Shown here: piece after piece, positions 21,601 to 39,014 of the stretch | Position numbering within the stretch: position 1 is the first letter of the stretch | Layout of the letters: each line of letters starts with the position of its first letter | From: Allopontixanthobacter confluentis | GTDB lineage: Bacteria; Pseudomonadota; Alphaproteobacteria; Sphingomonadales; Sphingomonadaceae | Length of the DNA stretch: 64,000 nt | Direction: 5' to 3' | Assembly: GCF_009827615.1 (NCBI RefSeq) | Contig: NZ_WTYU01000002.1 | Span: forward strand, 603,020 to 667,019 | Program-made: the position numbers and the translations under genes | Notes under the pieces: generated by a model | Database searches by the model: none | Told to the model about the DNA's origin: nothing | What the model saw: only the letters and a program-made list of their open reading frames with translations

Positions 21601-23423
21601 AGCAGGCCAGCAGCGCGGTCGCCCTGGGGCAGGGTGAGAATGTAATCATGGATGGTGCCAAGGCGCCCGTCGTCCAGTTCCGTTGGCGTTTCTGCCATGA
21701 CCCGGAAACCGAAATTTTCCAGCGCCGGGACCGAATCGGACAGCGGCAGCGCGCCTTCGTTTTCATAGATTTTCAGCCGCAGCTGGTTTTCTGGATCACC
21801 TTCCAGATGATACAGCCGCGCATCGCGCTGCATCACATGGCCGAGCGCATGTTCCGCTTCGGACAGGTTCAGATGGCGCATCCGCAGGATGTCGCGCGCA
21901 GCCTCCGCCGCGCCGTAACTGCTGCGGTAGCCAACCGGAAATGCCTCGGCATAACGGGTGGCAATGGCAGCAGCGCGCCCCGGTTCGCACGAGGCAATAA
22001 GTTCGCCTTCCACCGCTTCCGACCAGCCGCGCAGCATGTTTTGCAAACGGGCTTCAATGTCGCGTTCGCTATCGACATTGTGGCCAACATTATGGACGCC
22101 GCGAATATCCAGCACGAAGCGCAGCATGGCCAGATTGCCGCCTTCCACCTGCAGGCTCCAGTCCAGCAATTCGGCATTGGCGCCCTGTTCCAGCAATGCC
22201 TGGATCTGCATCCGCACCTGGGTGGACAGCATATCGCGCGGCAGCCAGACAAAGGCGAACAGATGGCGTGACAGCGGGGCTTCGACCATGGCGAGGCGTG
22301 GGCGGGGCCGGTCCACCAGGCTCATCATGGTGGTGGCCACGCGTTCGATGTCCTGTCTGGGGAAACCGATGACCAGATCATGCGGCAATGCAGTCAGCGC
22401 ATGGACCAGCGCCTTGCCGGCATGGCCCTTGTTGTCGAACCGGAATTTCTCGATCAGCTGCGACATCTGCGTGCGCAGCCGCGGCACTTGGCTGGGGGCT
22501 GCGGCCAGCGCGGCGCTGGTCCACACCCCTGCATGAACGGACAATGCGGCAACCGCGCCATCTTCCATGACAGGCACGATAAACAGGTCCAGCGGCACGC
22601 GGCGATGCACCAGCGATACACGGTTGGCCTTGACGATAAGAGGCACCAGCCGGTCCTTGTCGGACGCTTTTTCAAACCATTCAAAGGCCCGGTCATATGA
22701 TTGGTCGGCCAGAATCTGCTTGGCACTGCGGCGGCAGATGCCCAGCAATTGCGCCTGGCTGCCGTCGCGGCGGCGCGTCAGATGGCCCAGCTGGGTCAGC
22801 ATTCCGCCTTCCAGCCAGCGCAGCAATTCTGCGCCTTCTTCATCTTCGATCCGGTCAGCATCTTCGCGCATCATATCGCGCATTTTCGGCCAGTCGGTCA
22901 CGGCTGCACGCACATCGGCCAGGGTCGTGCGCAGCGCCTTTTCCAGATCGCGGCGCTGGCGCGCGTCAATCCGGACCGTTTCGATGTAAATCATCGATTC
23001 CAGCGGCGTTTCACCGGTTTTGGCCTTGGGGATGGATTGCAATGTTCCATCCTCCGACCGGCTGACGGGCACCACAGGATGGACCAGGCGGTCAATCGAC
23101 AGGCCTTGCGCGGCCACGGTCGATGCCACCGAATCGACCAGGAACGGCATATCGTCATTGACGATAGCAATTCGCATGAAGCGCCGCTCGTCACTGGCTG
23201 AAACCAGCGCCAGCGCCGGCTCGCCCGCTTCGCGCGATGCCGCAGCGTCGGTCAGGAAAGCGGCAGCTTCTGCCAGCTTGTCGTCAGCAAAGGGCGTGTC
23301 ACCGGGCAGCAGGGAATGGCGGACATGGGCGGCGAGCGCCATGACCTGCCCTTTGTGGCCCGCGGTATCGCGGTTCTGGCCGCGAGGTGTCTTTTGATCC
23401 GATGCGGTGGTTTTCGAACCCAT
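18669..23423 (-). CDS. gdhB: NAD-specific glutamate dehydrogenase, large (about 180 kDa) type
   Basis: A 1584-residue enzyme that converts glutamate to 2-oxoglutarate and ammonia. The length fits the 180-kDa class (GDH-180) of bacteria. The N-terminal half (about residues 1-700) holds the regulatory ACT-like regions seen in this class. The catalytic core begins near 760 with VEGIHLRAGPVARGGLRWSD and PTGAKGGFYPK near 820, and the dinucleotide-binding domain follows (DMSGDVFGNGML near 960; IGEGANLGITQAGRIEFA near 1110; NTDFIDNSAGVDCSDNEVNI). AGGAG lies 8 bases before ATG 23423. A perfect dyad lies upstream. It is the largest gene of the window and probably monocistronic. Confidence 0.95.
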   Translation of the reverse strand: MGSKTTASDQKTPRGQNRDTAGHKGQVMALAAHVRHSLLPGDTPFADDKLAEAAAFLTDAAASREAGEPALALVSASDERRFMRIAIVNDDMPFLVDSVASTVAAQGLSIDRLVHPVVPVSRSEDGTLQSIPKAKTGETPLESMIYIETVRIDARQRRDLEKALRTTLADVRAAVTDWPKMRDMMREDADRIEDEEGAELLRWLEGGMLTQLGHLTRRRDGSQAQLLGICRRSAKQILADQSYDRAFEWFEKASDKDRLVPLIVKANRVSLVHRRVPLDLFIVPVMEDGAVAALSVHAGVWTSAALAAAPSQVPRLRTQMSQLIEKFRFDNKGHAGKALVHALTALPHDLVIGFPRQDIERVATTMMSLVDRPRPRLAMVEAPLSRHLFAFVWLPRDMLSTQVRMQIQALLEQGANAELLDWSLQVEGGNLAMLRFVLDIRGVHNVGHNVDSERDIEARLQNMLRGWSEAVEGELIASCEPGRAAAIATRYAEAFPVGYRSSYGAAEAARDILRMRHLNLSEAEHALGHVMQRDARLYHLEGDPENQLRLKIYENEGALPLSDSVPALENFGFRVMAETPTELDDGRLGTIHDYILTLPQGDRAAGLLDRSDAIEQAIAAVLNASAEDDAFNRLVISTGLSARETDWLRAFYRYLRQVGMGFTIYTVVDALGRAPAVTMALVDLFNARHDPAFKGDRDAAAQSAQQAIKQGLAQVAAINDDRLLRLYQSVINAILRTNVFAPAAAEALAFKIDSALVPNMPKPVPWREIFVYSRRVEGIHLRAGPVARGGLRWSDRRDDFRTEILGLMKAQRVKNAVIVPTGAKGGFYPKLLPSPDKDREAWAAEGQASYEVFIRTLLSITDNIVDDKIIHPEGVVIHDGQDPYFVVAADKGTARFSDIANGIAESRNFWLDDAFASGGSNGYDHKAMGITARGAWVSVQRHFLEMGVDVQTDPIKVVGCGDMSGDVFGNGMLLSKAIKLVAAFDHRHIFIDPDPDAAASWKERDRMFNLPRSSWEDYNSSLISKGGGVFSRSLKKIPLSVQARRVLGIDAKEMEPEALISAILAAPADLLWFGGIGTYIKASAENNIAVGDPANDGLRIDADTVRAKVIGEGANLGITQAGRIEFALAGGRSNTDFIDNSAGVDCSDNEVNIKIALAAAKRGGKLSEAKRVTLLESMTDDVAAIVLEDNRLQALALSIAETGGAKSTAAQMRLIEALEDRGDLDRRTEGLADGEALARRAADGIGLTRPELAVLLSSTKLVLQDAIERSNLPDDPSMEAPLLEYFPAPMRTKFKSQILGHRLRREIVATQLANRIVNRLGLVHPFELAEEEGVELAQVAGAFVAAERLFDIGALWAQLDSVKMPEAARLMLFDRTASAMRGQMADLLRTGASTAPPSRIIGELAKGVQELSVAKDSLLAAEARQQSAKLRAGFAQAGAPEKIAAEVAHLFDIDGSVGLARLSLDAGISAQKLTSAFTDLGGRLGLDWAQGTAALMEPSDVWERLLVAGLARDFQQMRLDFLRRLSRRKDAKTDPAGAVTNWADDNAAAIRQFRAMISRAQARTPVAPAMLAQIASQARNILGR

Positions 23424-23464
23424 CCGTCCAGCTCCTGCAGGCCTTTGTGGCCTTATTATTATGT

Positions 23465-23481
23465 TGCTGCACCGTGCAGCA
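23465..23481. promoter_or_regulatory. Perfect 8-1-8 dyad upstream of the glutamate dehydrogenase gene
   Basis: TGCTGCAC and GTGCAGCA flank a single C, giving a 17-base palindrome that ends 42 bases before the ATG of the dehydrogenase gene. An AT-rich stretch (ATAATAATAA on the minus strand) between it and the start could be the -10 region, so a regulator bound here would overlap the promoter. Seen: symmetry and position. Inferred: operator role. Confidence 0.4.
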
Positions 23482-23709
23482 TAAATACGCGAATAGGCCG
23501 ATGTGTCGCGGCCTGCAAGCCGCGTTGCAAGGGATTATTTGCATGCCTTACTCATGCCTTCCGCCCGCATCTGCCTGTCGCTCTCTATAAGTCCAGAAGT
23601 TAGCGCGGCAGCATGCCAGGGCCCCTTGCCGTGCCGCCGCCTGACAGCCAGTCCACGGACCGGTTCTTCGTCCCCGCCGGTTTCCCAGCCGGCAACCGGG
23701 CCCGCTTGT

Positions 23710-24693
23710 TCAGCCCTTTACGGCTGCCATGGTCAATTCCAGCGAGCGGGCCCGGGCTTCGGGTTCAAAGGTCGATCCGCTGACGATGATTTCGTCCGCG
23801 CCGGTGCGTTCCACAAAGCGGGATATGGCATCGCGCACAGTGGCAGGCGCGCCAATGGCGCTGGCCTGGCCAATATGGGCCAGCATGGCTGCGGCAGGGG
23901 CCGGCAGACTTTCGCGATATGCCGCAACTGGCGGCGGCAGCTTGCCCGGCGTGCCGCTGCGCAGCCGGACAAATGCCTGCAATTGCGATGATGCCAGCAA
24001 TTCGGCCTCGTCGTCACTTTCGGCGCAGATCACCGTCATGGCAGGCATGACATAGGGCTGTGCCAAACCCGCGGACGGCCGAAATTCGCGGCGGTATATG
24101 TCCAGCGCGGCATCTAGATGGTCGGGCGCAAAATGGGATGCAAAGGCGTAAGGCAGGCCCAGCTGTGCGGCCAGCCGCGCCCCGAACAGGCTGGAGCCCA
24201 GCATCCAGAATTCGATATCGGCGCCAAGGCCGGGCGTCGCGGTCAGCGGCAATGGCGGATCGCCGGTGATGAGCGCGCGCAGTTCCACCACATCCTGCGG
24301 GAAATATTCTGCTGCCTGACCCAGATTTTTGCGAAAAGCCTGGGCAATGCGGCTGTCAGCCCCGGGCGCCCGCCCGAGGCCAAGGTCGATCCGGCCGGGA
24401 AATAGCGCGTCCAGCGTGCCGAATTGTTCAGCAATCACGAAAGGGTTGTGATTGGGCAGCATGATGCCGCCCGATCCGATGCGGATGGTGGAAGTGGCGT
24501 GGCCGATATGCGCCAGCACGACTGCCGTGGCCGCCCCTGCAATCCCTTCCATCGCATGATGTTCGGCCACCCAGAACCGGTTGTATCCGGCTTTTTCTGC
24601 AGCCTGCGCCAGACTGGCACTGGCCGCATAGGCCTGCCCCAGCGTGCCCCCTTCGCGGACCGGAACAAGGTCGAGAACCGATAGCGGGATCAT
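23710..24693 (-). CDS. Luciferase-like (LLM class) flavin-dependent oxidoreductase
   Basis: A 327-residue TIM-barrel protein of the bacterial luciferase superfamily, YhbW-like branch. It opens with IPLSVLDLVPVREG, followed by RFWVAEHHAMEGIAG near residue 40 and IRIGSGGIMLPNHNPFVIAEQFGTL in part near 70-95, with GRIDLGLGRAPGADSRIA near 100. The family oxidises or cleaves organic substrates with FMNH2 and oxygen; the substrate is unknown. ATG overlaps the stop of the TPR gene as ATGA, so the two are translated together. Confidence 0.87.
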   Translation of the reverse strand: MIPLSVLDLVPVREGGTLGQAYAASASLAQAAEKAGYNRFWVAEHHAMEGIAGAATAVVLAHIGHATSTIRIGSGGIMLPNHNPFVIAEQFGTLDALFPGRIDLGLGRAPGADSRIAQAFRKNLGQAAEYFPQDVVELRALITGDPPLPLTATPGLGADIEFWMLGSSLFGARLAAQLGLPYAFASHFAPDHLDAALDIYRREFRPSAGLAQPYVMPAMTVICAESDDEAELLASSQLQAFVRLRSGTPGKLPPPVAAYRESLPAPAAAMLAHIGQASAIGAPATVRDAISRFVERTGADEIIVSGSTFEPEARARSLELTMAAVKG

Positions 24694-25526
24694 GGCGTTT
24701 CCACTTGCGAAATATAGGCCTGGGCGGTTTGGGCAAAGGATGTTCCGGGCGCGGTTTCAAGTACGGACGCCCAGCTTTTGCGCGCGGCATCAGGGCGTCC
24801 GGACAATATGGCAATGACCCCGGCTTCCACCCCTGTTTCAGCGTCCATCGGTGCCAGCATGGCGGCCCTCTCGATCTGTTCCTGCGCTGTTTCCAGCAGG
24901 TTCATGCGGCGCGACAGCGTGGCGGAAAGAAGCCATGTCTGGGCATGATCTGGCTGTGCCTGTCGGGCCAGCCCCAGCACCGTTGCGGCATCCTCCAGCC
25001 GGTCCAGCGCCACCAGCGCGCGGGCGCGGTCCAGCATGATTTCGCCGGCCAGAACGCTGTTGCCCACCTGTCCCGCATCGGCCTGCGCAATATCAAGCGC
25101 GGCCAGCGCTGCGCTGGCATTGCCGGCAGACAATGCCGCATTGCCGGCCATTGCGCCCAGTTGCGCGCGGTATAGCTGGGCGCCGGGCATGGCGGCATCA
25201 CGCCCATTGATAAAGGCTGCGGCGGCATCATCCCAGCGGCCCTGCTGCACCAGTGCCATGCCCAGACATTGCGCGGCCCATGATTTGCGGCTCAGTTCGG
25301 CAGTGTCCAGCCATTGGCTTGCCATTGTCCGCGCGGCTTCGGGGTCAGTTTCGGCAAGGGTGATGCAATCGGTCAGCGGGTTGTCGATGGCGGTCTGTTT
25401 TTCGGCTTCACGTTTCGCCTGCCGGGTCAGCTGGCGCTGTTCATACAATTCATCCGGAACGGCCGATACAGGGCTGGGGGTTGGCGAAATGCCAACCTGG
25501 AGGAATATGGCAAGAAGGACAGACAT
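24690..25526 (-). CDS. Secreted TPR-repeat protein
   Basis: A 278-residue protein with an N-terminal hydrophobic signal (MSVLLAIFLQVGISPTPSPV). A charged helical stretch (ELYEQRQLTRQAKREAEKQ) follows, then TPR-like helical repeats rich in Ala/Leu from about residue 70 (AAQCLGMALVQQGRWDDAAAAF; AALDIAQADAGQVGNSVLAGE in part; LDRLEDAATVLGLARQAQPDHAQ; LETAQEQIERAAMLAPMDAETG). A Cys in LTDCITLAE and one in AAQCLG are present. Probably periplasmic scaffold or assembly protein. I chose ATG 25526 because it begins the signal; an upstream in-frame ATG would add 29 Cys-rich residues unlike a real N-terminus. It overlaps the flavoprotein gene by 4 bases. Confidence 0.75.
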   Translation of the reverse strand: MSVLLAIFLQVGISPTPSPVSAVPDELYEQRQLTRQAKREAEKQTAIDNPLTDCITLAETDPEAARTMASQWLDTAELSRKSWAAQCLGMALVQQGRWDDAAAAFINGRDAAMPGAQLYRAQLGAMAGNAALSAGNASAALAALDIAQADAGQVGNSVLAGEIMLDRARALVALDRLEDAATVLGLARQAQPDHAQTWLLSATLSRRMNLLETAQEQIERAAMLAPMDAETGVEAGVIAILSGRPDAARKSWASVLETAPGTSFAQTAQAYISQVETP

Positions 25527-25554
25527 ACGCGTTCTTTCGCAAACTTGGACAGGA

Positions 25555-26310
25555 TCAGGCGGCGTCAACCAGCAGGGCTGCCGTGCGCAGCAACAAGGCG
25601 ATATCCGCGTCACGGGACATGCGATGATCCGCCGCCTTAACCAGCGTCACCTGTATATCATCCGAACAAAGGCGCTGCGCCAGTTCAAGGCTGGTCTGCC
25701 AGGGAACGTCGGCATCGTTCTGGCCATGCAGCAGGCGCACGGGGCAATGGATTGCAATGTCGGTCGTCAGCATCCGGTTGGCTTGGGCGTCATGCCAGAA
25801 CCCTGCGTGCATGGGCGTTGGCTCAGGACCATAGGGATTGTCCTCGAACACGGTTTCTCCGCATTGCAGCCGCGCCTTCTGGCCTTCGTCATAGCCCCAG
25901 TCGGAAAAATCAGGCGCTGCGGCAATGCCAACCATCCCCGCCAGCCTGCCGCCCAGCGCAAGGCCCACCATCAGCATCAGCCAGCCGCCCATGGACGAAC
26001 CGACCAGTATGATTTCGCCTGAAGCTTGCGCGTGGATAAGATCCAGCACTTCATCGCGCCAGCGCGACAAGGTGCCATCGGCAAAATCCCCCGGGCTGGA
26101 TCCGCAGCCGGAATAATCCAGCAGCAGGCAATCGCGCCCTTGTTGTGCGGCCCATTCGAACAGTGCCGCTGCCTTGCCGCCTTCCATGTCGGACATATAT
26201 CCGGGCAGGAAGATGATGGTGGGGCCGGGCAGGATTTTCGATGGAGTGCCTGTCCGGCGAAAGGCGATTTTTCGCCCGTCTGGCAGATTATGGAATTGTA
26301 ACTGGGTCAT
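25555..26310 (-). CDS. Alpha/beta hydrolase
   Basis: A 251-residue serine hydrolase. The oxyanion-hole region is IIFLPGYMSDMEGGKAAAL near residue 30, the nucleophile elbow is VGSSMGGWLML near 100 (GxSxG), the acid is in LLHGQNDADVPWQ near 185, and the His is in VKAADHRMSRD near 225. DYSGCGSSPGDFADGTLSRW resembles ABHD10-like thioesterases and short-chain esterases. Start ATG 26310 fits the beginning of the first strand (TQLQFHNLPDGRKIAFR); an ATG eight codons earlier is possible. Substrate unknown. Confidence 0.85.
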   Translation of the reverse strand: MTQLQFHNLPDGRKIAFRRTGTPSKILPGPTIIFLPGYMSDMEGGKAAALFEWAAQQGRDCLLLDYSGCGSSPGDFADGTLSRWRDEVLDLIHAQASGEIILVGSSMGGWLMLMVGLALGGRLAGMVGIAAAPDFSDWGYDEGQKARLQCGETVFEDNPYGPEPTPMHAGFWHDAQANRMLTTDIAIHCPVRLLHGQNDADVPWQTSLELAQRLCSDDIQVTLVKAADHRMSRDADIALLLRTAALLVDAA

Positions 26311-26349
26311 CAAGGCCCGCTTGTCGGCCAACATCGCGGGCAGGGCAAG

Positions 26350-26454
26350 TCAGTAGATTTCAGGAACCCTGACCGGCTGATCGTCCGAACGTTCCCTATC
26401 GGCAGTGCCGCAGGCTGACAACAGGGCCAGCGAAATCAAAACAAACAGTCGCAT
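26350..26454 (-). CDS. Small lipoprotein, 34 residues
   Basis: A short ORF begins at ATG 26454 after GGGGGTGAA. It starts MRLFVLISLALLSACGTADR: a basic residue, a hydrophobic core and the lipobox LSAC, then a charged tail of about 19 residues ending in EIY. The mature peptide would be a lipid-anchored peptide of about 20 residues. It sits 14 bases after the stop of the XRE regulator gene and 39 bases before the hydrolase gene, all on the same strand. Tiny lipoproteins of this kind are common in Gram-negative bacteria and rarely annotated. Confidence 0.6.
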   Translation of the reverse strand: MRLFVLISLALLSACGTADRERSDDQPVRVPEIY

Positions 26455-26468
26455 TTCACCCCCATTAT

Positions 26469-26660
26469 TCAGTCTTTTGTGAATATTTCTTCTATAGACA
26501 TATCAAATGTTTCAGCAATGCGAAAGGCCAGCGGCAGGGATGGATCGTATTTGCCTGTCTCGATAGCATTGACGCTCTGGCGGGATACTTCCAGCCGGTC
26601 TGCCAGGTCCTGCTGGCTCCAGCTGCGTTCTGCACGCAGCACTTTCAGCCGGTTTTTCAT
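26469..26660 (-). CDS. XRE/Cro-type helix-turn-helix regulator (YozG-like)
   Basis: A 63-residue protein consisting of one HTH domain: MKNRLKVLRAERSWSQQDLA, then DRLEVSRQSVNAIETGKYDP with the recognition helix SRQSVNAIE, then FDMSIEEIF. This is the YozG/Xre_3-like single-domain type found beside small membrane proteins. The start ATG 26660 overlaps the stop of the upstream membrane protein gene as ATGA. Tandem dyads upstream of the trio (27304-27363) are candidates for its operator. Regulatory target is inferred to be its own operon. Confidence 0.88.
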   Translation of the reverse strand: MKNRLKVLRAERSWSQQDLADRLEVSRQSVNAIETGKYDPSLPLAFRIAETFDMSIEEIFTKD

Positions 26661-27079
26661 CGCAGCTGTCCCCACGCACCATAGGTGATGCGGTTGGAAA
26701 CAGCGCCGATACCAAAGCCCAGAAACCACAGGATCGCCACCCAATAGGCATCGACATGCGGCACCAGTTCAAAATTCTCCAGAAAACCCCAGATCGTGGC
26801 GAGCGACAGGGCAAAACCGGTTGCCACCAATGTCTGACGAACAATCAGCATGCGGATGAATTCATCCGGCGTCTCGGTGATCAGCTTGCCGATGGCATAG
26901 AATGCACCGACAATGGCGAGGCCGGGCAGCAGGCCCAGCAGCCAGACCACCGGCCGATCCACCAATTCGCGTCCCACCAGATATTCGCCGGTAAACAGGG
27001 CGGCGATATAGACCGCCATCGAAATACCCATGCGTTTCAGATAGGCGCGCTGGGCCTGTTGGTTGCTTGTGCAGACCAT
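26657..27079 (-). CDS. Four-helix membrane protein paired with the XRE regulator
   Basis: A 140-residue protein with four hydrophobic segments: about 18-36 (GISMAVYIAALFTGEYLV), 42-64 (PVVWLLGLLPGLAIVGAFYA), 78-100 (LIVRQTLVATGFALSLATIW) and 112-130 (WVAILWFLGFGIGAVS). No known enzyme motif is visible. In many bacteria similar proteins accompany YozG-like regulators and may control their activity from the membrane; this is inference from context. AAGGA lies 10 bases before ATG 27079. The stop overlaps the regulator start, so the proteins are made together. Confidence 0.7.
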   Translation of the reverse strand: MVCTSNQQAQRAYLKRMGISMAVYIAALFTGEYLVGRELVDRPVVWLLGLLPGLAIVGAFYAIGKLITETPDEFIRMLIVRQTLVATGFALSLATIWGFLENFELVPHVDAYWVAILWFLGFGIGAVSNRITYGAWGQLR

Positions 27080-27082
27080 GGT

Positions 27083-27271
27083 TTATGCGTCCTTCCTGGC
27101 AGAAAAAATGGCGCAGCGCCGGGATGATCCCAGCCATACAGACGGGAATATGGCGAGCAGCGCCACCGGCGCCCATTGGGCGAAAGTTTCAGGAATGATG
27201 TCGAAAATGGCAAGCAGCGCAGTGCCGATCATGGCAGCGCCCAGCAACAAAGCCTTCTGTATCGGGTTCAT
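27083..27271 (-). CDS. Small two-helix membrane protein upstream of the XRE module
   Basis: A 62-residue protein with two likely membrane segments (ALLLGAAMIGTALLAIFDII at about 6-26; APVALLAIFPSVWLGSS at about 33-49) and a basic tail with RRC. AAAAGGA lies 8 bases before ATG 27271, favouring this start over one 13 codons upstream. Three bases separate its stop from the four-helix protein gene. First gene of the trio that ends with the HTH regulator. Function unknown. Confidence 0.65.
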   Translation of the reverse strand: MNPIQKALLLGAAMIGTALLAIFDIIPETFAQWAPVALLAIFPSVWLGSSRRCAIFSARKDA

Positions 27272-27303
27272 GACAATGGTCCTTTTCACTATGTAAAGGG
27301 TGT

Positions 27304-27363
27304 TTGACAATGATTCGCTGTCTTGTCAAGCACCATTGACATGAAGGACAGGTACCTTGTCAA
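27304..27363. promoter_or_regulatory. Two tandem TTGACA/TGTCAA dyads ahead of the membrane-protein/XRE operon
   Basis: Dyad one: TTGACA 27304-27309 with TGTCAA 27324-27329 (14-base spacer). Dyad two: TTGACA 27336-27341 with TGTCAA 27358-27363 (16-base spacer). Dyad starts are 32 bases apart, close to three helical turns. A further TGACAATGG occurs at 27271-27279 over the small gene's start. The location between the divergent XRE operon and PhoD gene suits autoregulation. TTGACA also matches a -35 box. Confidence 0.45.
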
Positions 27364-27432
27364 AAATTGGTGAGAACAGCCTTGCCACAGACAGTCTTGG
27401 CGGTGTCACGCAGTCAGGCTAAGTCTGGCTGT

Positions 27433-29106
27433 ATGACCATGCCGCCACCCGCATCCGCCAGCCCGCCATCCGTCCAGTCGCTCGACCGCCGCGGGTTGTT
27501 CCGAGCGGGCCTTCTGGGTGCGGGCCTCGCCGCGCTGCCAGTAGCAGCCGCAGCAGCGCAAGAGCGCGGTTTCACCCACGGGGTGGCCAGCGGCGAACCG
27601 AGTGCAAACAGCGTGCTTTTATGGACGCGTTTCGCTTCTGGGGACCCTGTAAAACTGCGCTATGAAGTAAGCGACAGCATGGATTTTGCCAAAGTGGCAG
27701 CGAGCGGCGATGTGGAGGCAACGCCCGCGCGTGACGGTTGCGTCAAGCCGGTGGCGGCGGGCCTTGCGCCTGATCGCTGGTATTATTTCCGCTTCATCGC
27801 GCCCGATGGTTCCATGTCCGACATTGGCCGCACGCGCACCTTGCCCATGGGCGACACATCGCGCTTCCGCATGGCCGTGGTGGGCTGTTCCAACATCGGT
27901 TTCGGCTGGTTCAACGCCTATGCCCATATTGCCGCGGCTGACGCGTTCGACCTGGTGGTGCATACCGGCGATTATATCTACGAATATGGCGCTGGCACCT
28001 ACCCGGCCGAAGGCGAAGCGGTGGCGGGCCGCACTCTTGTCCCGCAGACGGAAATTATCGCGCTGGCCGATTACCGGCTGCGCTATGCTGCCTATCGGGC
28101 AGACCCGGATTTGCAGCGCCTGCACCAGCTTTACCCGATGATTGCGGTGTGGGACGATCATGAAACGGCCAATGACAGTTACCGCGATGGCGCTGAAAAC
28201 CATGATCCGGCAACCGAAGGCACATGGGACATGCGCAAGCGCGTTGCCATGCAGGCCTATCACGAATGGATGCCTGTTTCCGATGCGCCGTGGGCGGCTT
28301 ATGAAATCGGCAATCTGGCCACGCTGTTCCGGCTGGAAACACGGCTGACGGCGCGGACCAAGCCGTTTGATCTGACCACGATCATTGCGCGCGGGGGTGA
28401 CAATCCGGCGGCCATGATGGCGGCGCTGGATGCGTTCCGCGATGGCGAATGGCGGGATGAAAACCGCACCTTGATGGGCGCCGCGCAGGAAGCATGGCTG
28501 GCGGCCGGCATGGCGCGGTCCCGCAAGGAAGGCAAAACCTGGCAAGTGCTGGCGCAGCAAGTGATCATGGCCAGCCTGTCCCTGCCCAAGGGGATTGCCG
28601 ATAATCTCAGTGATGGGATGCCTGCCTATATCCGCAAGCGGTTGCTGGCAGCGGCCGCCACCAGCCGCGCGGGCCTGCCGTTCAACATGGATGCGTGGGA
28701 CGGCTACCCCGCGGCCCGTGCACGGCTGCTTAAATCCGCGCAGGAAACGGATGCAAATCTGATCGTGCTGGCGGGGGACAGCCACAATGGCTGGGCCAGC
28801 GAGCTGGATAATGAGGGCGCTGCGGCAGGGGTGGAATTTGCCGGTCATTCCGTCACATCTCCCGGCGCAGAAGGGTATCTGCCATGGATCAAGCCGGCTG
28901 ATTTTGCCGCGCAATCCGTGTCTCGCAATCCGCAGCTTCAATGGGCCAATACCGGCCAGCGCGGCTATATGGCGGTGGAACTGACGCCTGCCAGCGCCAC
29001 GTCGGAATATCGCTTTGTGTCGGGCGTAAAGACGCGCTCTGCCACGCTGGCCAGCGCGCAGCGGATCAGCACCAAGGCCGGGTCTGCCCGCCTCGACATT
29101 GGTTGA
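27433..29106 (+). CDS. phoD: Alkaline phosphatase D (PhoD-like), Tat-exported
   Basis: A 557-residue phosphodiesterase/phosphomonoesterase. The twin-arginine signal is DRRGLFRAGLLGAGLAALPV near residue 18, with cleavage after AAAAA. The N-terminal PhoD domain has FTHGVASGEPSANSVLLWTR. The metallophosphatase core holds LVVHTGDYIYEYGAG near 180 (metal Asp), AVWDDHETANDSYRDGA near 237 and VLAGDSHNGWASEL near 445. Fe/Ca-dependent release of phosphate in the periplasm is the family role. Start chosen at ATG 27433, which gives a short basic n-region; an earlier start adds 22 residues. The gene lies 31 bases ahead of the thrS leader ORF. Confidence 0.88.
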   Translation: MTMPPPASASPPSVQSLDRRGLFRAGLLGAGLAALPVAAAAAQERGFTHGVASGEPSANSVLLWTRFASGDPVKLRYEVSDSMDFAKVAASGDVEATPARDGCVKPVAAGLAPDRWYYFRFIAPDGSMSDIGRTRTLPMGDTSRFRMAVVGCSNIGFGWFNAYAHIAAADAFDLVVHTGDYIYEYGAGTYPAEGEAVAGRTLVPQTEIIALADYRLRYAAYRADPDLQRLHQLYPMIAVWDDHETANDSYRDGAENHDPATEGTWDMRKRVAMQAYHEWMPVSDAPWAAYEIGNLATLFRLETRLTARTKPFDLTTIIARGGDNPAAMMAALDAFRDGEWRDENRTLMGAAQEAWLAAGMARSRKEGKTWQVLAQQVIMASLSLPKGIADNLSDGMPAYIRKRLLAAAATSRAGLPFNMDAWDGYPAARARLLKSAQETDANLIVLAGDSHNGWASELDNEGAAAGVEFAGHSVTSPGAEGYLPWIKPADFAAQSVSRNPQLQWANTGQRGYMAVELTPASATSEYRFVSGVKTRSATLASAQRISTKAGSARLDIG

Positions 29107-29137
29107 AAGCGCAATCTTGCCGCGCTATGAGGGGCGA

Positions 29138-29209
29138 ATGACGCAGGTATGCATCACGACAACGACTACTACCACCCGGTTTGCGCCGGGGCGGCTGGTC
29201 GCGATCTGA
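29138..29209 (+). CDS. Threonine-rich leader peptide of thrS
   Basis: An ORF of 23 codons with a good ribosome site (GAGGGG before ATG 29138). Codons 7-13 (29156-29176) are seven Thr codons in a row (ACG ACA ACG ACT ACT ACC ACC), and codon 2 is also Thr, so 8 of 23 residues are Thr. The peptide reads CITTTTTTTRFAPGRL in its centre. It ends with TGA at 29207, inside a pair of competing hairpins, 132 bases before the threonyl-tRNA synthetase start. This is the layout of a ribosome-sensing attenuator: low Thr-tRNA stalls the ribosome on the Thr run. Function is inferred from sequence alone. Confidence 0.8.
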   Translation: MTQVCITTTTTTTRFAPGRLVAI

Positions 29210-29246
29210 TCGCTGCCACCGCCGCCCGGGTTCGGGCGGCATGGTG
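29189..29246 (+). promoter_or_regulatory. thrS attenuator: mutually exclusive antiterminator and terminator hairpins
   Basis: Segment 2 (GGGCGGC, 29189-29195, plus GGT 29197-29199) can pair with segment 3 (ACC 29218-29220 plus GCCGCCC 29221-29227), with a small inner stem GCGA/TCGC. Segment 3 (CACC 29217-29220, GCCGCCCG 29221-29228) can instead pair with segment 4 (CGGGCGGC 29233-29240, GGTG 29243-29246) around a 4-base loop. The two share segment 3 and exclude each other. The leader stop codon lies in the loop of the 2:3 hairpin, so a ribosome that reaches it would free segment 3 for 3:4. A U-run after 3:4 is weak. Confidence 0.65.
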
Positions 29247-29341
29247 TCACTTCCCGAACCTTTGACAATTGCATGATGCCGAGACTTCCGGTGCGCGCCG
29301 GGCTGTGCCATGGCACGCGCAAATAAGGTGAGACACATTCG

Positions 29342-31363
29342 ATGAGTGAAATGCTGAAGATCAGCCTTCCCGATGGTTCCGTGCGGGAAATGCCGCAGGG
29401 GTCCACCCCTGCCGACGTGGCTGCCGCCATTGGCCCCGGCCTGGCAAAAGCTGCGCTGGCCGCCCGGATCGATGGCGAAGTGCGCGATATCATGCGGCCT
29501 TTCGACGGCGATACACAGCTGGCGCTGATCACCAGCCGCGACGAAGCCGACGCGCTGGAACTGATGCGGCACGATTTTGCCCATGTTCTGGCAGAAGCCG
29601 TGCAGGCATTATGGCCCGATACGCAGATCACCTTTGGCCCGGCCACGGATGACGGTTTCTATTATGATTTCGCGCCAAGTGCGGAGCGCGGGCCATTCAC
29701 GGATGAAGACCTGCCGGTGATCGAACAGAAAATGCGCGACATCATCGCGGCGGACAAACCGCTGATCCGCGAAGAATGGGCGCGTGACGACCTGATTGCA
29801 TGGTTCAAGAAACAGGGCGAAAGTTTCAAGGCGGAATGGGCCGCTGAACTGCCCGAGGGCGAGCCGCTGACGGTCTATCATTCCGGCAATGTCGGCGCCG
29901 GCGATACGTGGCTGGACCTGTGCCGCGGCCCGCATCTGGCATCCACCGGCAAGCTTGATCCCAAGGCGTTCAAGCTGACGCGTGTGTCGGGCGCCTATTG
30001 GCGCGGCGACCAGAAAAACGCCATGCTCAGCCGCATTTACGGCACCGGCTGGCTCAACAAGAAGCAGCTCGATGCCCATATGCACCGGCTGGAAGAAGCT
30101 GCCAAGCGCGACCACCGCAAGCTGGGCCGCGAGATGGACCTGTTCCACCTTCAGGAAGAAGCGCATGGCAGCGTGTTCTGGCATCCCAAGGGCTACAAGA
30201 TCTGGCGCGAGCTGGAAGCCTATATGCGCCGCCGGATGGACGGGGCCGATTACCGCGAAGTGAAAACGCCGCAACTGATGGATGCCCGCCAGTGGGAACA
30301 GTCCGGCCATTGGGGCAAATATCGGGAAAACATGTTCGTCATTCCCGATGAAGTTCCCAATGTGGATGATGAAGGCCCGGTCATTTCCGGCGATGCGGAA
30401 TGGATGGCGCTGAAGCCGATGAACTGCCCGGCCCATGTGCTGGTGTTCAAGCAGGGCATCACGTCCTACCGCGATCTGCCGCTGCGCATGGGCGAAATGG
30501 GCTGCTGCCACCGCAACGAACCGCATGGCGCGCTGCATGGTCTGATGCGCGTGCGCCAGTTCACGCAGGATGACGGGCATATTTTCTGCACCGAAAACCA
30601 GGTAGTGGAAGAAGTGCGCAAGTTCTGCGAGCTGGCCAGCACGGTCTATCGTGAACTCGGCTTTGAAAGCTACGCGATCAAGCTGGCGACGCGGCCGGAA
30701 CAGCGGTTCGGCAGTGATGCCGACTGGGACAAGGCCGAGGAAGAACTGCGCAATGCCGTGCGCGAAGCGGGCATGGCGACGGACGAATTCGGCTGGGAAG
30801 AACTGGAAGGCGAAGGCGCGTTTTATGCACCGAAGCTGGAATGGCACCTGACCGATGCCATTGGCCGCACCTGGCAGGTGGGCACCATCCAGTCCGACCG
30901 GGTGCTGCCGCAGCGGCTGGATGCAAGCTATGTCGGGGAAGATGGCGACCGCCATCGCCCGGTCATGCTGCACCGCGCCATTTTCGGGTCGTACGAACGC
31001 TTCATCGGCATTCTGATCGAACATTATGCCGGCAAGCTGCCACTGTGGCTGGCCCCGGTGCAGGCAGTGGTGGCAACCATCGTGTCGGATGCGGATGCCT
31101 ATGGCAGCGATGTGACGGCCCGGCTGAAGGCAGCGGGCCTGCGGGTGGAAAGCGATTTCCGGAACGAGAAGATCAATTACAAGGTGCGCGAACATTCGGT
31201 CAAGAAAGTGCCGCATCTGCTGGTGGTGGGCATGCGCGAGGCGGAAGAAGGCACGGTTGCCATCCGCACCCTGGGTGAACAGCAGCAGAGATTCCTGCCG
31301 GTGGATGAAGCGATTGCCATGCTGAAAGCAGAAGCGACCGCGCCGGATCTGCGCCCCGCTTGA
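29342..31363 (+). CDS. thrS: Threonyl-tRNA synthetase
   Basis: A 673-residue class II synthetase with full length for the family. The TGS domain is at 1-65 ([20 protein letters not shown]), and the editing (SAD) domain is around 65-240 with the [11 protein letters not shown] and CRGPHL signatures. The catalytic core is from about 245, with [12 protein letters not shown] (zinc Cys) near 360, [15 protein letters not shown] (motif 2), [12 protein letters not shown] (zinc His) and the anticodon-binding domain after about 545 ([11 protein letters not shown]). AAGGTGAG precedes ATG 29342. Expression is probably controlled by the Thr-rich leader peptide and attenuator directly upstream. Confidence 0.97.
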
Positions 31364-32100
31364 TCGCGGATTTTACCAGCCTGCAGATTGCTGCGGCGCT
31401 GGTTGCGGCGCTGGCCGCCGGGTTCGTCCGCGGTCTGGCAGGCTTCGGCATGGCGCTGCTGCTGGTGCCGGTATTGGGGCTGACCGTGGCACCGCAATCA
31501 GCGGTGGTCACGGTCACGATTTTGAGCCTGTTCATCGGCCTCATCAGCCTGCGTAGCGCCGTGGGGCAGGCTGAACGGTCCGCCCTTCCCATCGGTGCAT
31601 TCGCAGTATTGGCAACGCCGCTGGGCCTGTGGCTGCTGCGGCTCACCGACCCTGATCTGGCGCGGATGCTGATTGCGCTGGTGGCACTGGGCGCATTCAT
31701 TCTGGTGTTGCTGCCCAAGCAAGCCGGCACCCATGCGCCAGGCAAGGCGGTGACGGGCCTGACCGGCATCGCATCGGGCGTGCTGACAGGGTTTGCCGGA
31801 ATGCCCGGCCCGCCGATTATTCCCTATTATCTGCGCCGCGCAGTAACCCCGCAAATGGCCCGCGCATCCATGATGGCCATTTTCGTGGCAACATCGACTG
31901 CCGGATGCACGGCAGCCTATCTGATGGGCATGATGCAACCCAGACACGCCATGCTGGCGGCCATCCTGTTCCCGGCAATCCTGATCGGCAACGCGTTTGG
32001 CGGCCTCGCCTTTGGCAAAGTCAGCCCTGCGCTATGGCGCATTTTTGTAGGGTTGGTGCTGGGCGCAGCCGCAGTGGGCGCGCTGGTCAAGCTGGTGTGA
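31360..32100 (+). CDS. TauE/SafE-family membrane exporter
   Basis: A 246-residue membrane protein with about eight hydrophobic segments. The N-terminal half opens with [21 protein letters not shown], the family signature (G-x-x-G-x-G-G/A), and the second half repeats the fold with [20 protein letters not shown]. TauE/SafE proteins export sulfite, sulfoacetate or other organosulfur anions; substrate is unknown here. The apparent start is TTG 31360, overlapping the thrS stop as TTGA, so translation is probably coupled to thrS. No better start is visible before the first membrane segment. Confidence 0.82.
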
Positions 32101-32232
32101 TTACAGCGCCAATACCGGAACAGGCTGGCCCGCCATGATCAGGGCCAAGGCGCAGCCGGTCACGATCATCATGCGAAGCGCATCGACAGGCAAGGACTGC
32201 GCCCGCCGCATGAATGTGATCATATGTTCCAT
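32101..32232 (-). CDS. Small ORF, 43 residues, single membrane segment
   Basis: ATG 32232 is preceded by GGAGAAAG at a suitable distance. The product starts MEHMITFMRRAQSLPVDALR and continues into a hydrophobic stretch (MMIVTGCALALIMAGQPVPV) that could span the membrane. It ends with TAA at 32101, directly beside the convergent TauE-family gene. No homologous family is recognised. Evidence is the ribosome binding site, the hydrophobic segment and an ORF filling the gap; it may still be spurious. Confidence 0.4.
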   Translation of the reverse strand: MEHMITFMRRAQSLPVDALRMMIVTGCALALIMAGQPVPVLAL

Positions 32233-32509
32233 CACCGCTTTCTCCGTCACAAGCCCTAATGAAGCGTTAAGATGGCAGGGGCGCACCAAAGCTGTTTTCC
32301 GCGCCCCATTTTCCTTGGCCCGCGCGCCCTTGGTCAATGCGGACCGGGATTCGCTTTCTACGTACAGTCCCCAATCGACAGTCAGCCGCGGCGGGGTGCA
32401 GACTTCGTGGCAGGGAACGACGCGCAATGGTTCCGCAATACTGGGGAATTGCTCCTTAAAAAATTGCCCGCGGTAACCCTTCGTCATTTTGTTATGGAGA
32501 GGCCGAATT

Positions 32510-32899
32510 ATGGTACATTTATGGAAGCCAACCCTGGTCATCGCTGCGGGGCTGGCATTGGCGGCGACGTCAGACATTGCCCTGGCGCAATCATCAACTT
32601 CGCAGGAAATTACCGTCACGGCGCCGCGAGTGTCGGTCCACAAGGAAGAACGGACCTCTTCGGGTATGGCCCGGGTCATGGTGTATTCTGTGGACCGGCA
32701 GGTCAGCTTTGGCGATCTTGATCTCATGACCGCCGCCGGAATTGAAACTTTCAGGGCGCGCATCCGCGAAGCGGCAAAAGAAGGCTGCGCGCAGATTTCC
32801 AAGGACTATCCGCTGGTCAAGGATTCCAGTTGCGAGCGCGTGGCAATCGATCAGGCCAATCTGCAGGCGAACCAGATTATCGAGGCCGCGAGAATGTAG
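32510..32899 (+). CDS. UrcA family protein (secreted)
   Basis: A 129-residue protein with a signal peptide (VHLWKPTLVIAAGLALAATS, then DIALAQ cleavage). The mature part holds VYSVDRQVSFGDLDLMTAAG, then RARIREAAKEGCAQ and SSCERVAIDQA. This is the UrcA pattern: a Tyr/Ser-rich strand, DLDL, and two Cys likely to form a disulfide. UrcA proteins are small periplasmic proteins of unknown function, typical of Sphingomonadales and Caulobacterales. GGAGAGG lies 7 bases before ATG 32510, which decides the start. A 277-base gap upstream shows no other gene. Confidence 0.85.
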   Translation: MVHLWKPTLVIAAGLALAATSDIALAQSSTSQEITVTAPRVSVHKEERTSSGMARVMVYSVDRQVSFGDLDLMTAAGIETFRARIREAAKEGCAQISKDYPLVKDSSCERVAIDQANLQANQIIEAARM

Positions 32900-32905
32900 C
32901 TATGT

Positions 32906-33898
32906 TCAGGCGGGCATCTGCTGGCTGGCGCAGTGAAAGCCCCCGCCGCCTGCCAGCACCGCATCGCCCGGCAGGCCGATTGTCGCGCGATCCGGAAACA
33001 GGCTGGCAATGGCGGCCACGCCATCATCATCATACATGGACCCGAAAGTCGGCACCACCACCAGATGGGTGGTTATGGCGAAATTGGCATAGCTGGCAGG
33101 CTCGACGAAATTGCCCCGGGTGATGAGACCGGGCGACGGAATTTCTGCCAGCGTCACCCCGAATGCTTCGGCCCGTGCCCGTGCATCCGCGTAAATCGCG
33201 GCATTGGGATCATCCTTGCCAGTGGGGCCGGGCAGGGCCAGCACATTGGGCGCCACAAATCGCGCCAGATTATCGACATGACCATCGGTATGATCGTTGA
33301 GCAAGCCATCGCCCAGCCACAAGACCCGCGTAAATCCAAGATCGGAAGACAGCCGCTGTTCAATCTCGGCGCGGGAAAGATGCGGGTTGCGATTGGGGTT
33401 GAGCAGGCATTGTTCGGTCGTCACCACCAGGCCAGTACCGTCACCATCAATCGCGCCGCCTTCCAATATCCAGTCGGACACTTCCAGCGGCAGGCCTGCA
33501 TCCTGCGCCAGCTCCGCGCCAATGGTCTGGTCGCCCGGCATCAGATATTTTTCGCCCCAGCCGTTGAAGCCGAACCTGCGTGCCTTGCGCGCCGCGCCCA
33601 CCGCGCCCGCCGCCCTTTGGGCCAGCACCAGCGGGCCGGTATCGCGCAGCCAGATATCGCCATAAGTCCGCCGCTCCAGCTTCACTGCGCTGCTCACCAG
33701 CATCCGCGCCCGCGCTTCATTGGCCGCGTCACGCACCAGCAGGCGCACTTCCTGCCCGCTTTCGGCCACGGCATTGGCAAAAGCAGCAATCTGTTCCTGC
33801 GCCGTACCGAGGTAGCCCGGCCATTCTTCTGCGGCATGGGGAAAGCCGATCCAGATCCAGTCCTGCGGTGCCCATTCCGGCGGCATTGAAAAAGTCAT
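32906..33898 (-). CDS. aguA: Agmatine deiminase family protein
   Basis: A 330-residue enzyme of the peptidylarginine-deiminase-like family that hydrolyses agmatine to N-carbamoylputrescine and ammonia. Visible family motifs are TYGDIWLRDTGP near residue 80, GFNGWGEKYLMPGDQ near 110, WILEGGAIDGDGTG near 140 (EGG with catalytic Asp/Glu), NDHTDGHVDNLARF near 205 (catalytic His-Asp), and the nucleophile Cys in GGGGFHCASQQMP at the end. ATG 33898 begins MTFSMPPEWAPQDWIWIGFP, the usual opening; AAGGA lies upstream. The symbol rests on family assignment; related enzymes can act on other guanidines. Confidence 0.9.
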   Translation of the reverse strand: MTFSMPPEWAPQDWIWIGFPHAAEEWPGYLGTAQEQIAAFANAVAESGQEVRLLVRDAANEARARMLVSSAVKLERRTYGDIWLRDTGPLVLAQRAAGAVGAARKARRFGFNGWGEKYLMPGDQTIGAELAQDAGLPLEVSDWILEGGAIDGDGTGLVVTTEQCLLNPNRNPHLSRAEIEQRLSSDLGFTRVLWLGDGLLNDHTDGHVDNLARFVAPNVLALPGPTGKDDPNAAIYADARARAEAFGVTLAEIPSPGLITRGNFVEPASYANFAITTHLVVVPTFGSMYDDDGVAAIASLFPDRATIGLPGDAVLAGGGGFHCASQQMPA

Positions 33899-34054
33899 GG
33901 GCACATGGTCCTTCGGCAAGTTCAGCAATGGCCGCGCAATATGCGCTGCGTCGTTTACGCATCGGCGCCCGTTCCAGTTTACAGCATTTGCGTCAAATGA
34001 AAGAAGCCGGACGCGCACTTGCCTGCACGATCAGAGCAAGGCAGGGGAGGGCAG

Positions 34055-36775
34055 ATGCAGGCAGACTGGCCCGATGCGATTGATCGCGCGCGCAAACATG
34101 CGCCGTTTCTGGCGCGCGGGCTGGAACGCCTGCCGGAAATAGCCGCCCTGCTGCAACAGGGGCGCGGTGAAGATGCGCTGCACTTGGCGCGTGCGGCGGG
34201 CGAAATCCGCGATGTTGCAACCGATGATGTGGGCGTGATCCTGCGGCGTGAACGGCTGGCCCATGCAGTGGTGCTGGCCATCGGCGATCTGGCGGGCGCA
34301 TTTCCCGTGGACCGGGTGATGCGCGAATTGTCATCGCTGGCCGACCGCGCGCTGGATGCAGCCATCAGCGCGGCCATTGCGCGGCGGGTGCCGGGCACAG
34401 CGCCAGCGGGCTTCATCGCTCTTGCGCTGGGAAAACATGGCGCGTGCGAATTGAATTACAGTTCCGATATCGACCCCATCCTGCTGTTCGATCCTGAATT
34501 GCTGCCCCGGCGCGAGCGGGATGAGCCGGGCGAGGCAGCGCAGCGTTATGCCCGCGATATTGTCCAGATGCTGGCCAGTAACACTGCCGAGGGGTATGTA
34601 TTTCGCGTGGACCTGCGACTGCGTCCGGCATCGGAAGTCAGCCCGCTCGCCATTTCGCTGGGCGCGGCGCTGACCCATTACGAATCGTCCGCCCTTACCT
34701 GGGAACGTGCCGCTTTCATCCGCGCCCGCGCCTGTTCGGGCGATGTGGAAGGCGGCGAGGCGTTCCTTGCCGCCATCCGGCCATTTGTCTGGCGCCGCAG
34801 CCTCGATTTCGGCGCGATCGAGGAAATTGGCCGCCTGACCGCGCGCATCAGGGCCAATTACAAGGGGCCCAAACAGCCCGGCCCCGGCTTCAATCTGAAA
34901 CATGGACGCGGCGGCATCCGCGAAGTGGAATTCTTCGCCCAGACACACCAGCTGATCCATGGCGGGCGCGATCCTTCGCTCCGGATGCGCGGCACCCGTC
35001 CGGCGCTGGATGCGCTGGCCGCAGCCGGGCTGATTTCCGCCGAAGATGCCAGCGTGGTCGGCAATGCCTATGACCGGCTGCGGGTGCTGGAACATCGGTT
35101 GCAAATGGTGGCAGACCAGCAGACCCATGCGCTGCCGTCGGGCGAGGCGCTGGATAATGTGGCACAATTTGAAGGGCTGGCGGGCGGGGCCGCGCTGGTC
35201 GCGCAGGTGGCCGAATTGACCGAGGCTGTAGGCCAGAGGTTTGACCGGCTGATTGATGCAGGCGGCGCATCATCCCACGCAGGTGCCGCGGCACCAGCGG
35301 GGCTGCCCGGCCAGTTGGAACAGCTTGGCTTTGCTGATCCTGCCGCGCTGGCAAGCCGGATAGAGGGGTGGACAGATGGCCATATCCGCGCCCTGCGCAG
35401 CCCGGCGGCGTGCAAGGCATTTGACGCCATTTTGCCCGATGTGCTGCAGGCACTGGCCGATGCGCCCGACCCCGAGCGGGCGCTGCTGCGCTGGGAAGCG
35501 ATGCTGGCCGGCGCGCCTTCTGCCATCAATCTGTTCCGCCTGCTGGAAGCGCGGCCGGGCCTGTTGGACCAGCTGGTCAAGGTGCTGACGCTGGCCCAGC
35601 CGCTGGCCGATGAACTGGGCCGCCGCCCCGAATTGCTGGATGCGCTGATTGATCGCAGCGCGCTGGATTTGCCGGGCAGCGTGGCTGACCTTGCCAATGC
35701 CATGTCGCGCAAGGAAGACGATGATGATTACGAGCGGCGGCTGGACCGCATCCGCGTCGTCACCAGCGAAAAACGTTTCGCGCTGGGCGTGCAACTGATC
35801 GAGGCGGCGCATGATCCGCTGGAAATCGGCGCGGCGCTGTCGCGGCTGGCAGAAGCGGCGCTATGCGTTGCCGCGACTGCCGCGCGCGAGGAATTTGTGA
35901 AAGTGCATGGCACTGTGGCTGGTAGCGAATTGATGGTGCTGGGCCTTGGCCGGCTGGGCGGGGGCGTGCTGACCCATGCGTCCGATCTCGACATTATTTT
36001 CCTGTTTACCGGCACCCATGAAGGCGAATCGGATGGGGGCCGCGATGGAGGGCGCCCGCTGGGTGCAACACTCTATTTCAACCGGCTGGCACAGCGGGTC
36101 AGCGGCGCTCTCAGCGTGCCCACCGCAGAAGGCGCCTTGTATGAAGTGGATACGCGGCTGCGCCCGCAGGGCAAACAGGGTCCGCTGGCAGTCAGCCTCG
36201 ACAGTTTTGCCCGTTACCAGCAGGAAAGCGCGTGGACGTGGGAGCATATGGCGCTGACACGGGCCCGCCCGCTGTTCGGATCGCCCGATGCCTGCGCCCG
36301 ATTAAGCGGCATCATTGCCGATGTGCTGCAAACCCCGCGTGATGCAACCAGCCTGCGCGAAGACGTGCTGCAGATGCGCGCCGATATGGCGCGGCACAAA
36401 CCCGCCAAAGGCCCGCTCGATGCCAAGCTGTCACGCGGCGGATTGGTCGATCTGGAATTTCTGGTGCATTATCTGCAATTGCGCGACCGCACGGCGCTGA
36501 CACCGCATCTGGGCGAAGCGGTGGCGGGGCTGGTTGATGCAGGGCTGGTGCCGCAATCCCTGGTGGCCGCGCATGATCTGATGACGCGGATGCTGGTTGC
36601 AACGCGCCTGCTGGCGCCTGATCTGGCGCTTCCGGCGCCTGCCTCGGCCCGGGTGCTGGCGGCGGCCTGCGGATGCAGCGACGGGCCGGGTCTGCTGCGT
36701 GCTTTCGCGGATGCCCGCGCCCAGGTCGCGGACATCTGGAGCACCGTTCTGGACAGCAAACTGGAGAGCGAATGA
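34055..36775 (+). CDS. glnE: Bifunctional glutamine synthetase adenylyltransferase/deadenylyltransferase
   Basis: A 906-residue enzyme that adds and removes AMP on glutamine synthetase in response to nitrogen state. Two nucleotidyltransferase domains are seen: the first with GKHGACELNYSSDIDPILLF near residue 127 (deadenylylation), the second with GLGRLGGGVLTHASDLDIIF near 629 (adenylylation), each followed by a helical GlnD/PII-type domain (HGRGGIREVEFFAQ and SRGGLVDLEFLVHYLQL). ATG 34055 follows GGGGAGGG; a TTG 12 codons earlier is less likely. The stop overlaps the bcp start region. Interaction with PII protein is family knowledge. Confidence 0.95.
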   Translation: MQADWPDAIDRARKHAPFLARGLERLPEIAALLQQGRGEDALHLARAAGEIRDVATDDVGVILRRERLAHAVVLAIGDLAGAFPVDRVMRELSSLADRALDAAISAAIARRVPGTAPAGFIALALGKHGACELNYSSDIDPILLFDPELLPRRERDEPGEAAQRYARDIVQMLASNTAEGYVFRVDLRLRPASEVSPLAISLGAALTHYESSALTWERAAFIRARACSGDVEGGEAFLAAIRPFVWRRSLDFGAIEEIGRLTARIRANYKGPKQPGPGFNLKHGRGGIREVEFFAQTHQLIHGGRDPSLRMRGTRPALDALAAAGLISAEDASVVGNAYDRLRVLEHRLQMVADQQTHALPSGEALDNVAQFEGLAGGAALVAQVAELTEAVGQRFDRLIDAGGASSHAGAAAPAGLPGQLEQLGFADPAALASRIEGWTDGHIRALRSPAACKAFDAILPDVLQALADAPDPERALLRWEAMLAGAPSAINLFRLLEARPGLLDQLVKVLTLAQPLADELGRRPELLDALIDRSALDLPGSVADLANAMSRKEDDDDYERRLDRIRVVTSEKRFALGVQLIEAAHDPLEIGAALSRLAEAALCVAATAAREEFVKVHGTVAGSELMVLGLGRLGGGVLTHASDLDIIFLFTGTHEGESDGGRDGGRPLGATLYFNRLAQRVSGALSVPTAEGALYEVDTRLRPQGKQGPLAVSLDSFARYQQESAWTWEHMALTRARPLFGSPDACARLSGIIADVLQTPRDATSLREDVLQMRADMARHKPAKGPLDAKLSRGGLVDLEFLVHYLQLRDRTALTPHLGEAVAGLVDAGLVPQSLVAAHDLMTRMLVATRLLAPDLALPAPASARVLAAACGCSDGPGLLRAFADARAQVADIWSTVLDSKLESE

Positions 36776-38938: not shown

Positions 38939-38964
38939 TCGCCAGTAATACAGAATAAATTCAT

Positions 38965-39007: not shown

Positions 39008-39014
39008 GAATGAA

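Follow-up and report, generated by a model that had tools for sequence, protein, structure and literature searches.

The classical ribosome-mediated attenuators are the trp, his, thr and pheST systems of enteric bacteria. In E. coli, thrS, the gene for threonyl-tRNA synthetase (ThrRS), has an operator at which ThrRS represses its own translation, with no leader peptide, and in Gram-positive bacteria T-boxes match ThrRS to charged tRNA. The element described here would have the control of thrS expression in common with the E. coli operator, and differs from it in that the latter depends on translational repression mediated by ThrRS.

Several described leaders resemble the present one in part. 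In the actinobacterium Streptomyces lividans TK24, a leader peptide gene, thrL, precedes thrS and is reported to be leaderless, and the authors found a hairpin with no U-rich sequence (passages of PMC8079986). The leader peptide ahead of thrS and the (probably) leaderless start are shared with our element; the difference is that thrL has two Thr in 18 aa, as against the Thr runs of 3-9 found here, and that pairings equivalent to the helices X and Y discussed below are not described in those passages. The trpL leader of Sinorhizobium meliloti is likewise an alphaproteobacterial ribosome-dependent attenuator, with an RNA that starts at the leader ATG, and differs in serving Trp biosynthesis (passages of PMC7298713). 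A precedent for the combination of a leader peptide with a predicted pseudoknot is the actinobacterial LEU element before leuA, for which the authors doubt classical attenuation; its base stem pairs Leu codons with the leuA Shine-Dalgarno box, whereas the crossing helices here end 37-89 nt before thrS (passages of PMC1262725).

The element ahead of thrS shares with the classical attenuators a leader peptide with cognate codons in runs, a stop codon in the 2:3 loop, and the alternative pairings 2:3 and 3:4 (a description taken partly from passages of PMC7298713 and PMC1262725). Unlike them, it has two extra covarying helices (X and Y) and a probably leaderless leader, and the U-tract is missing in most members. 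It is classed here as a variant that works like a classical attenuator, and not as one with an intrinsic terminator. From comparative sequence analysis and folding models, we consider it highly probable that it regulates thrS by ribosome-mediated transcription attenuation, sensing charged tRNA-Thr. If this is true, alphaproteobacteria would have a further route for fitting ThrRS to the supply of charged tRNA, beside ThrRS self-repression and T-boxes. Our search of the open-licence literature found no description of this element in Sphingomonadales. Screens for a hairpin followed by a U-tract are expected to miss it, and Rho-dependent cases are named as a limit of the authors' own method in a passage of PMC2965389.

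The thrS locus and its leader ORF

The window is the whole stretch of DNA that was analysed, 64,000 nucleotides long; coordinates refer to its forward (+) strand. The thrS gene (29342-31363, with its start codon ATG at 29342) is identified by the Pfam domains TGS, tRNA_SAD, tRNA-synt_2b and HGTP_anticodon, and has a TauE-like gene downstream. Ahead of it lies the leader peptide ORF (29138-29209), MTQVCITTTTTTTRFAPGRLVAI, whose upstream neighbour is a PhoD-like phosphatase gene (27367-29106) and whose counterparts are found ahead of thrS in relatives. Direct reading gives an ATG at 29138, 23 codons and the stop codon TGA at 29207-29209. It bears out the ORF length of the original prediction and its uninterrupted run of seven Thr codons (29156-29176). 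These seven codons are the proposed sensor. Counting both strands, the window has 745 ORFs of 8-45 codons, and the leader ORF is the only one of them with at least five Thr in 10 codons (it has seven); the runner-up has four, and the next longest Thr run is three.

No Rfam family reached its gathering score anywhere in the window. At a relaxed threshold, the region 29050-29400 gave two weak matches (E 1 and 2.5), both on the opposite strand and neither of them a T-box. An ending resembling RGRxVA (29186-29206) is common among the leader peptides, and is perhaps set by RNA segment 2 and not by a function of the peptide.

Probable promoter and start of the leader transcript

A probable leader promoter is found at 29103-29131, from its sequence and by comparison with relatives. 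It consists of a -35 element TTGAAA (29103-29108), a 17-nt spacer and a -10 element TATGAG (29126-29131), and overlaps the 3' end of the PhoD-like gene. The leader ORF had been credited with a ribosome binding site, and the sequence AGGGGCG is indeed present at 29130-29136; however, the -10 element overlaps it, with its end 6 nt upstream of the ATG, and this makes a leaderless start the likelier one.

The same spacing is seen in relatives. Of 67 relatives, 64 have a TA-hexamer, defined by at least three of six matches to TATAAT, whose end lies 5-9 nt upstream of an in-frame start codon (at 7 nt in 39 and at 6 nt in 17), as compared to 14 of 67 or fewer for seven other offset ranges, and of the 64 with a promoter-spaced start only two have an SD-like four-mer. 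For these reasons, the leader mRNA is probably leaderless, with its transcript starting at or near the leader ATG. Caulobacter has many leaderless mRNAs (passages of PMC4117421).

Occurrence in related genomes

A first scan of genome contigs for thrS provided the best 80 loci, of which 58 were taken as Sphingomonadales by name or ThrRS identity, three of them bearing a broader name only. In the other 22 alphaproteobacterial loci among these best 80, the best-scoring short ORF upstream had a Thr run of two at most. Upstream regions were then scored for the 58 loci together with 30 loci from an order search (the window's own genome among them) and another 100 stretches. A short ORF with at least five Thr in 10 codons was present in 77 of these 188 regions, which are the top of a similarity ranking, contain some duplicates and give no estimate of frequency; in three of the 77 (L177, L183, L189) the ORF is unlike the leader. 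A leader filter, requiring at least four Thr in 10 codons, a run of three and a suitable position, retained 78 regions with longest Thr runs of 3-9, of which 74 are distinct and 67 are mutually less than 90% identical.

A less biased count comes from the covariance model R1, which was itself built partly from genomes among the 296 of the order that were searched. At E 0.001 it matched 85 of the 296, once in each matched genome; the matches fall in 19 of 79 genera, and all 85 are in the window's family. Since the other 211 gave no R1 match, with filters that lose weak matches, the element is dispensable. The same model run over 385 genomes of the class gave four matches, all in the window's family, and in the window's own genome only thrS scores well, the next match having E 1.41. 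Twenty R1 matches were fetched, none of them a row of alignment A1 (described below), one of them (L228) being a near copy of such a row. All 20 lie upstream of thrS, and a Thr-rich ORF was detected by script in 19; in the exception, L226, the Thr run is visible. The named carriers include Allopontixanthobacter, Croceicoccus, Altererythrobacter, Erythrobacter, Porphyrobacter, Novosphingobium, Blastomonas and Sphingomonas. Conservation had been proposed as a check, and Thr-run leader ORFs do recur before the thrS genes of relatives.

In four regions (L132, L177, L202, L210) no Thr leader was found, yet by eye a sequence like the 3' arm of Y or like the block that follows it has been kept. These regions look as if the leader had been lost.

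Covarying helices

Two alignments were used. A1 has 67 rows and was built without structure. A3 has 87 rows, namely these 67, 19 of the 20 newly fetched sequences (L228 was excluded) and L087; it was fitted to helices 1:2, 3:4 and Y, whereas 2:3 and X were not in the fitting model. In addition, a swap test compared the pairing of each 5' arm with its own partner to the median obtained with 3' arms from sequences less than 70% identical.

Helix 1:2 (29175-29179 with 29186-29190) lies at the end of the Thr run. Its cells are paired in 91.7% on A3 (fitted), with changes on both sides in 3/5 pairs, and in 91.3% on A1 (unfitted), with such changes in 4/5 pairs. The swap test gave no support for 1:2 (14/87), a helix that varies little. 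For helix 2:3, two registers are possible because segment 3, which reads CCGCCGCCC, is repetitive, so that its arm can be 29219-29223 or 29222-29227. The first register (29190-29194 with 29219-29223) covaries, with 91.9% of cells paired and both-side changes in 5/5 pairs on A3 (unfitted). It has the leader stop codon, TGA at 29207-29209, in its loop, as had been claimed. The second register (29189-29194 with 29222-29227) is the one adopted in the window's own fold and has 90.8% of cells paired; on A1 it showed no covariation above shuffles, and its fraction paired was reached by 742 of 1000 shuffles.

The second register (A1 columns 22-83 to 27-74) was therefore rejected as the main one, RNAalifold on A1 having given the covarying register (23-75 to 27-71), together with the core of 3:4 and three 1:2 pairs shifted by one. 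It pairs almost as often and is used by the window's fold, and both registers are kept as possible candidates. The choice affects the relation to helix 3:4 (29222-29227 with 29234-29239): the first register shares only 29222-29223 with it and the second all of 29222-29227, and only in the second would 2:3 alone exclude 3:4 fully. An argument that X is necessary because 2:3 overlaps 3:4 by two bases was dropped, being true of one register only. The predicted choice of segment 3 between segments 2 and 4 thus exists, refined to two registers for 2:3 and to the pairing given above for 3:4.

Helix 3:4 has 98.7% of cells paired on A3 (fitted), with both-side changes in 2/6 pairs. Two further covarying helices within the same region were absent from the original prediction. 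Helix X (4:5) pairs 29228-29236 (GGGTTCGGG) with 29253-29261 and excludes 3:4; on A3 (unfitted) 90.0% of its cells are paired, with both-side changes in 6/9 pairs. Helix Y (4':6) pairs 29243-29248 with 29275-29280, contains two G-U pairs in the window, and crosses X; its cells are paired in 93.7% on A3 (fitted), with both-side changes in 5/6 pairs, and in 78.7% on A1 (unfitted), with such changes in 4/6.

Taken jointly on A3, 2:3 and X have 90.7% of cells paired, compared with 28-63% in slid controls, and both-side changes in 11/14 pairs, and none of 500 shuffles was as high on any measure. On A1, 2:3 (second register) and X have 90.6%, with slid controls at 33-67%. The corresponding values for 1:2, 3:4 and Y are 94.9% on A3 (fitted; slid controls 44-55%) and 89.4% on A1 (slid controls 36-53%), each with both-side changes in 10/17 pairs. 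In each joint count, the observed covariation score was higher than that of all 500 shuffles, the shuffles being of a kind that ignores relatedness. In the swap test the own partner exceeded the median in 77/87 sequences for X, 77/87 for Y, 67/87 for 3:4 and 64/87 for 2:3. Covariation of the alternative pairings was the second check proposed, and 1:2, 2:3 and 3:4 keep their pairing through compensatory changes. The set is also a collection of natural variants, with X and Y as additional covarying helices, for studying attenuation that lacks a U-tract and the possible steering of a pseudoknot by a stalled ribosome.

X and Y could be either alternatives to each other or the two stems of an H-type pseudoknot. 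The loop lengths allow a pseudoknot, with L1 of 5-6 nt in 73, L2 of 3-5 nt in 78, and L3 of 10-14 nt in 76 of the 87 sequences. Y mostly has no U-tract following it, and would therefore make a poor terminator; for this reason we favour a putative pseudoknot of X with Y over the two as alternatives.

Folding with a ribosome on the leader

The effect of ribosome position was simulated with masks whose limits were chosen by us, using a folding program that cannot handle pseudoknots. For RNA up to X, the stalled mask left 65 of the 87 sequences with 2:3 (in either register), 68 with X and 60 with the two together, while 3:4 formed in 10. Extending the mask to the stop codon rules out 2:3 by construction; 3:4 then formed in 73/87 and X in 8/87. 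The window behaves in the same way, forming 2:3 and X when the ribosome is stalled and 3:4 when it is at the stop.

In a classical attenuator, the default of the untranslated RNA is termination. Here, unmasked RNA up to X often folds as in the stalled state, giving 2:3 with X in 43, 3:4 in 15 and 1:2 in 39 of 87. This counts against the proposed reading, as the off state is not clearly what untranslated RNA would adopt.

The contrast is weaker in the models of the whole 134-position element than in those of RNA up to X. When stalled, the whole element gave 2:3 (either register) in 52, 3:4 in 28 and X in 24 of 87; with the ribosome at the stop, 3:4 in 68, X in 6 and Y in 30; and with no mask, 3:4 in 41 and 2:3 in 42. 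In the full-length fold of the window the expected shapes are absent: free and stalled RNA both give 2:3 with four of the six 3:4 pairs, and the RNA with a ribosome at the stop gives none of the helices.

Output of the proposed switch

In the 10 nt after Y there are two U's in the window, 0-3 in 71/87 and 5-6 in 7/87 sequences. The last seven are four sequences with six U's (in L160 as a run of six) and three with five. An intrinsic terminator, in the sense of a hairpin with a U-tract, is thus not found in the window or in most of the 87 members, and Y as an ordinary intrinsic terminator was rejected. This agrees with the original prediction, which had noted a weak U-run and suggested that termination may need a factor; helices X and Y, however, alter how this output stage is to be pictured. 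A scan for U-tract terminators over window positions 20001-40000 gave 19, compared to 16.8 in shuffles (sd 3.8), no clear excess; this fits little use of such terminators in this DNA, being compatible with it and no proof of it.

In L238 and L237, an ORF lies between the leader and thrS. It encodes 168 aa in L238 (204-710) and 163 aa in L237 (225-716), in each case on the minus strand of the fetched stretch. Both ORFs start MRYYIDTEFNGTGG, and we take their products to resemble a 3'-5' exonuclease; a Pfam search at E 0.001 gave no match for the L238 protein. A promoter-like sequence is seen ahead of thrS in both. In L021 (Blastomonas natatoria), L231 and L236, AACCCCTTTTGGGG follows the Y region, a small hairpin that was not noticed in the others.

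Proposed mechanism and alternatives

In the mechanism that we propose, the leader transcript would start at or near the leader ATG, as its promoter spacing suggests, and would be translated as a leaderless mRNA. A shortage of charged tRNA-Thr would make the ribosome stall in the Thr run and cover segment 1. Helix 2:3 would then form and take part or all of segment 3, and X would outcompete 3:4, probably joined with Y in a pseudoknot; RNA polymerase would go on into thrS. With charged tRNA-Thr in good supply, the ribosome would move on to the stop codon and block 2:3, 3:4 would form, X would be excluded, and the transcript would be stopped or removed before thrS. As most members have no U-tract, this off step should depend on a factor, for example Rho, or on an unusual terminator. 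We infer the stalling, the direction of the response, and termination as the output. That stalling on the Thr codons senses charged tRNA-Thr and raises thrS expression was part of the original prediction, and is supported by the comparative test and by the simulated switch, window included, for RNA up to X.

Other explanations differ in how much of this they keep. The same sensor could have a translational or mRNA-decay output, with a full-length transcript on which the switch masks or uncovers either an RNase site or the region of the thrS start. We regard this as unlikely, while noting that most members have no clear U-tract, and that leader peptide, Rho and RNase G are combined in Salmonella speF, so that mixed outputs exist (PMC6386406). 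Against a translational output, folds from leader to thrS show weak pairing between the leader and the thrS start region (mean probability 0.27; above 0.5 in 10/67), Y ends a median of 61 nt (range 37-89) before thrS, and in L238 and L237 the intervening ORFs make direct masking of the thrS start unlikely. These points favour a switch that acts on the transcript and not at the thrS start; none of them bears on decay. ThrRS autoregulation would make the structured leader a ThrRS-bound operator, with the Thr codons secondary. It has the precedent of E. coli, which is mentioned in a passage of PMC2965389, but such an operator needs no translated Thr run with a stop codon in the 2:3 loop, and we think this very improbable. 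It is more improbable still that the ORF is a coincidence or reflects a coding constraint, as a short Thr-rich protein or repeat with no regulatory role. No point in support of this was found, and against it stand the compensatory changes, which occur both in the coding part (1:2 and one arm of 2:3) and past the stop codon (3:4, X and Y), and the spacing from promoter to leader start, which is kept.

Returning to attenuation, a more specific version is put forward tentatively, and with some doubt on our part. The element may be an attenuator of six segments that lacks an intrinsic terminator and in which the ribosome on the leaderless Thr ORF picks between the 3:4 hairpin and an X/Y pseudoknot. 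The pseudoknot would serve as the anti-terminator and keep a C-rich stretch out of reach of Rho or RNase, and charged tRNA-Thr would gate Rho-dependent termination before thrS.

The block between the probable attenuator and thrS

A conserved block, CTTCCG...CATGGC (29285-29314), lies between the attenuator and thrS and recurs in relatives. The pattern CTT-N19..22-C[AT]..G, which was chosen after inspecting the sequences, is present in 66/73 leader-bearing and 51/106 other upstream regions, at least three of the latter (L087, L102, L194) in fact carrying the element; shuffled letters would be expected to give 3.7 and 7.4. The GC-rich block was considered as an RNA hairpin or as a mimic of the anticodon for ThrRS, and this was rejected, since the motif is also found in leader-less relatives and, in a post hoc comparison, promoter spacing fits better. 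It may be a second thrS promoter, in which case basal expression of thrS would bypass the attenuator. By eye, the block tends to start with CTTC in leader-bearing members and with CTTG in leader-less ones.
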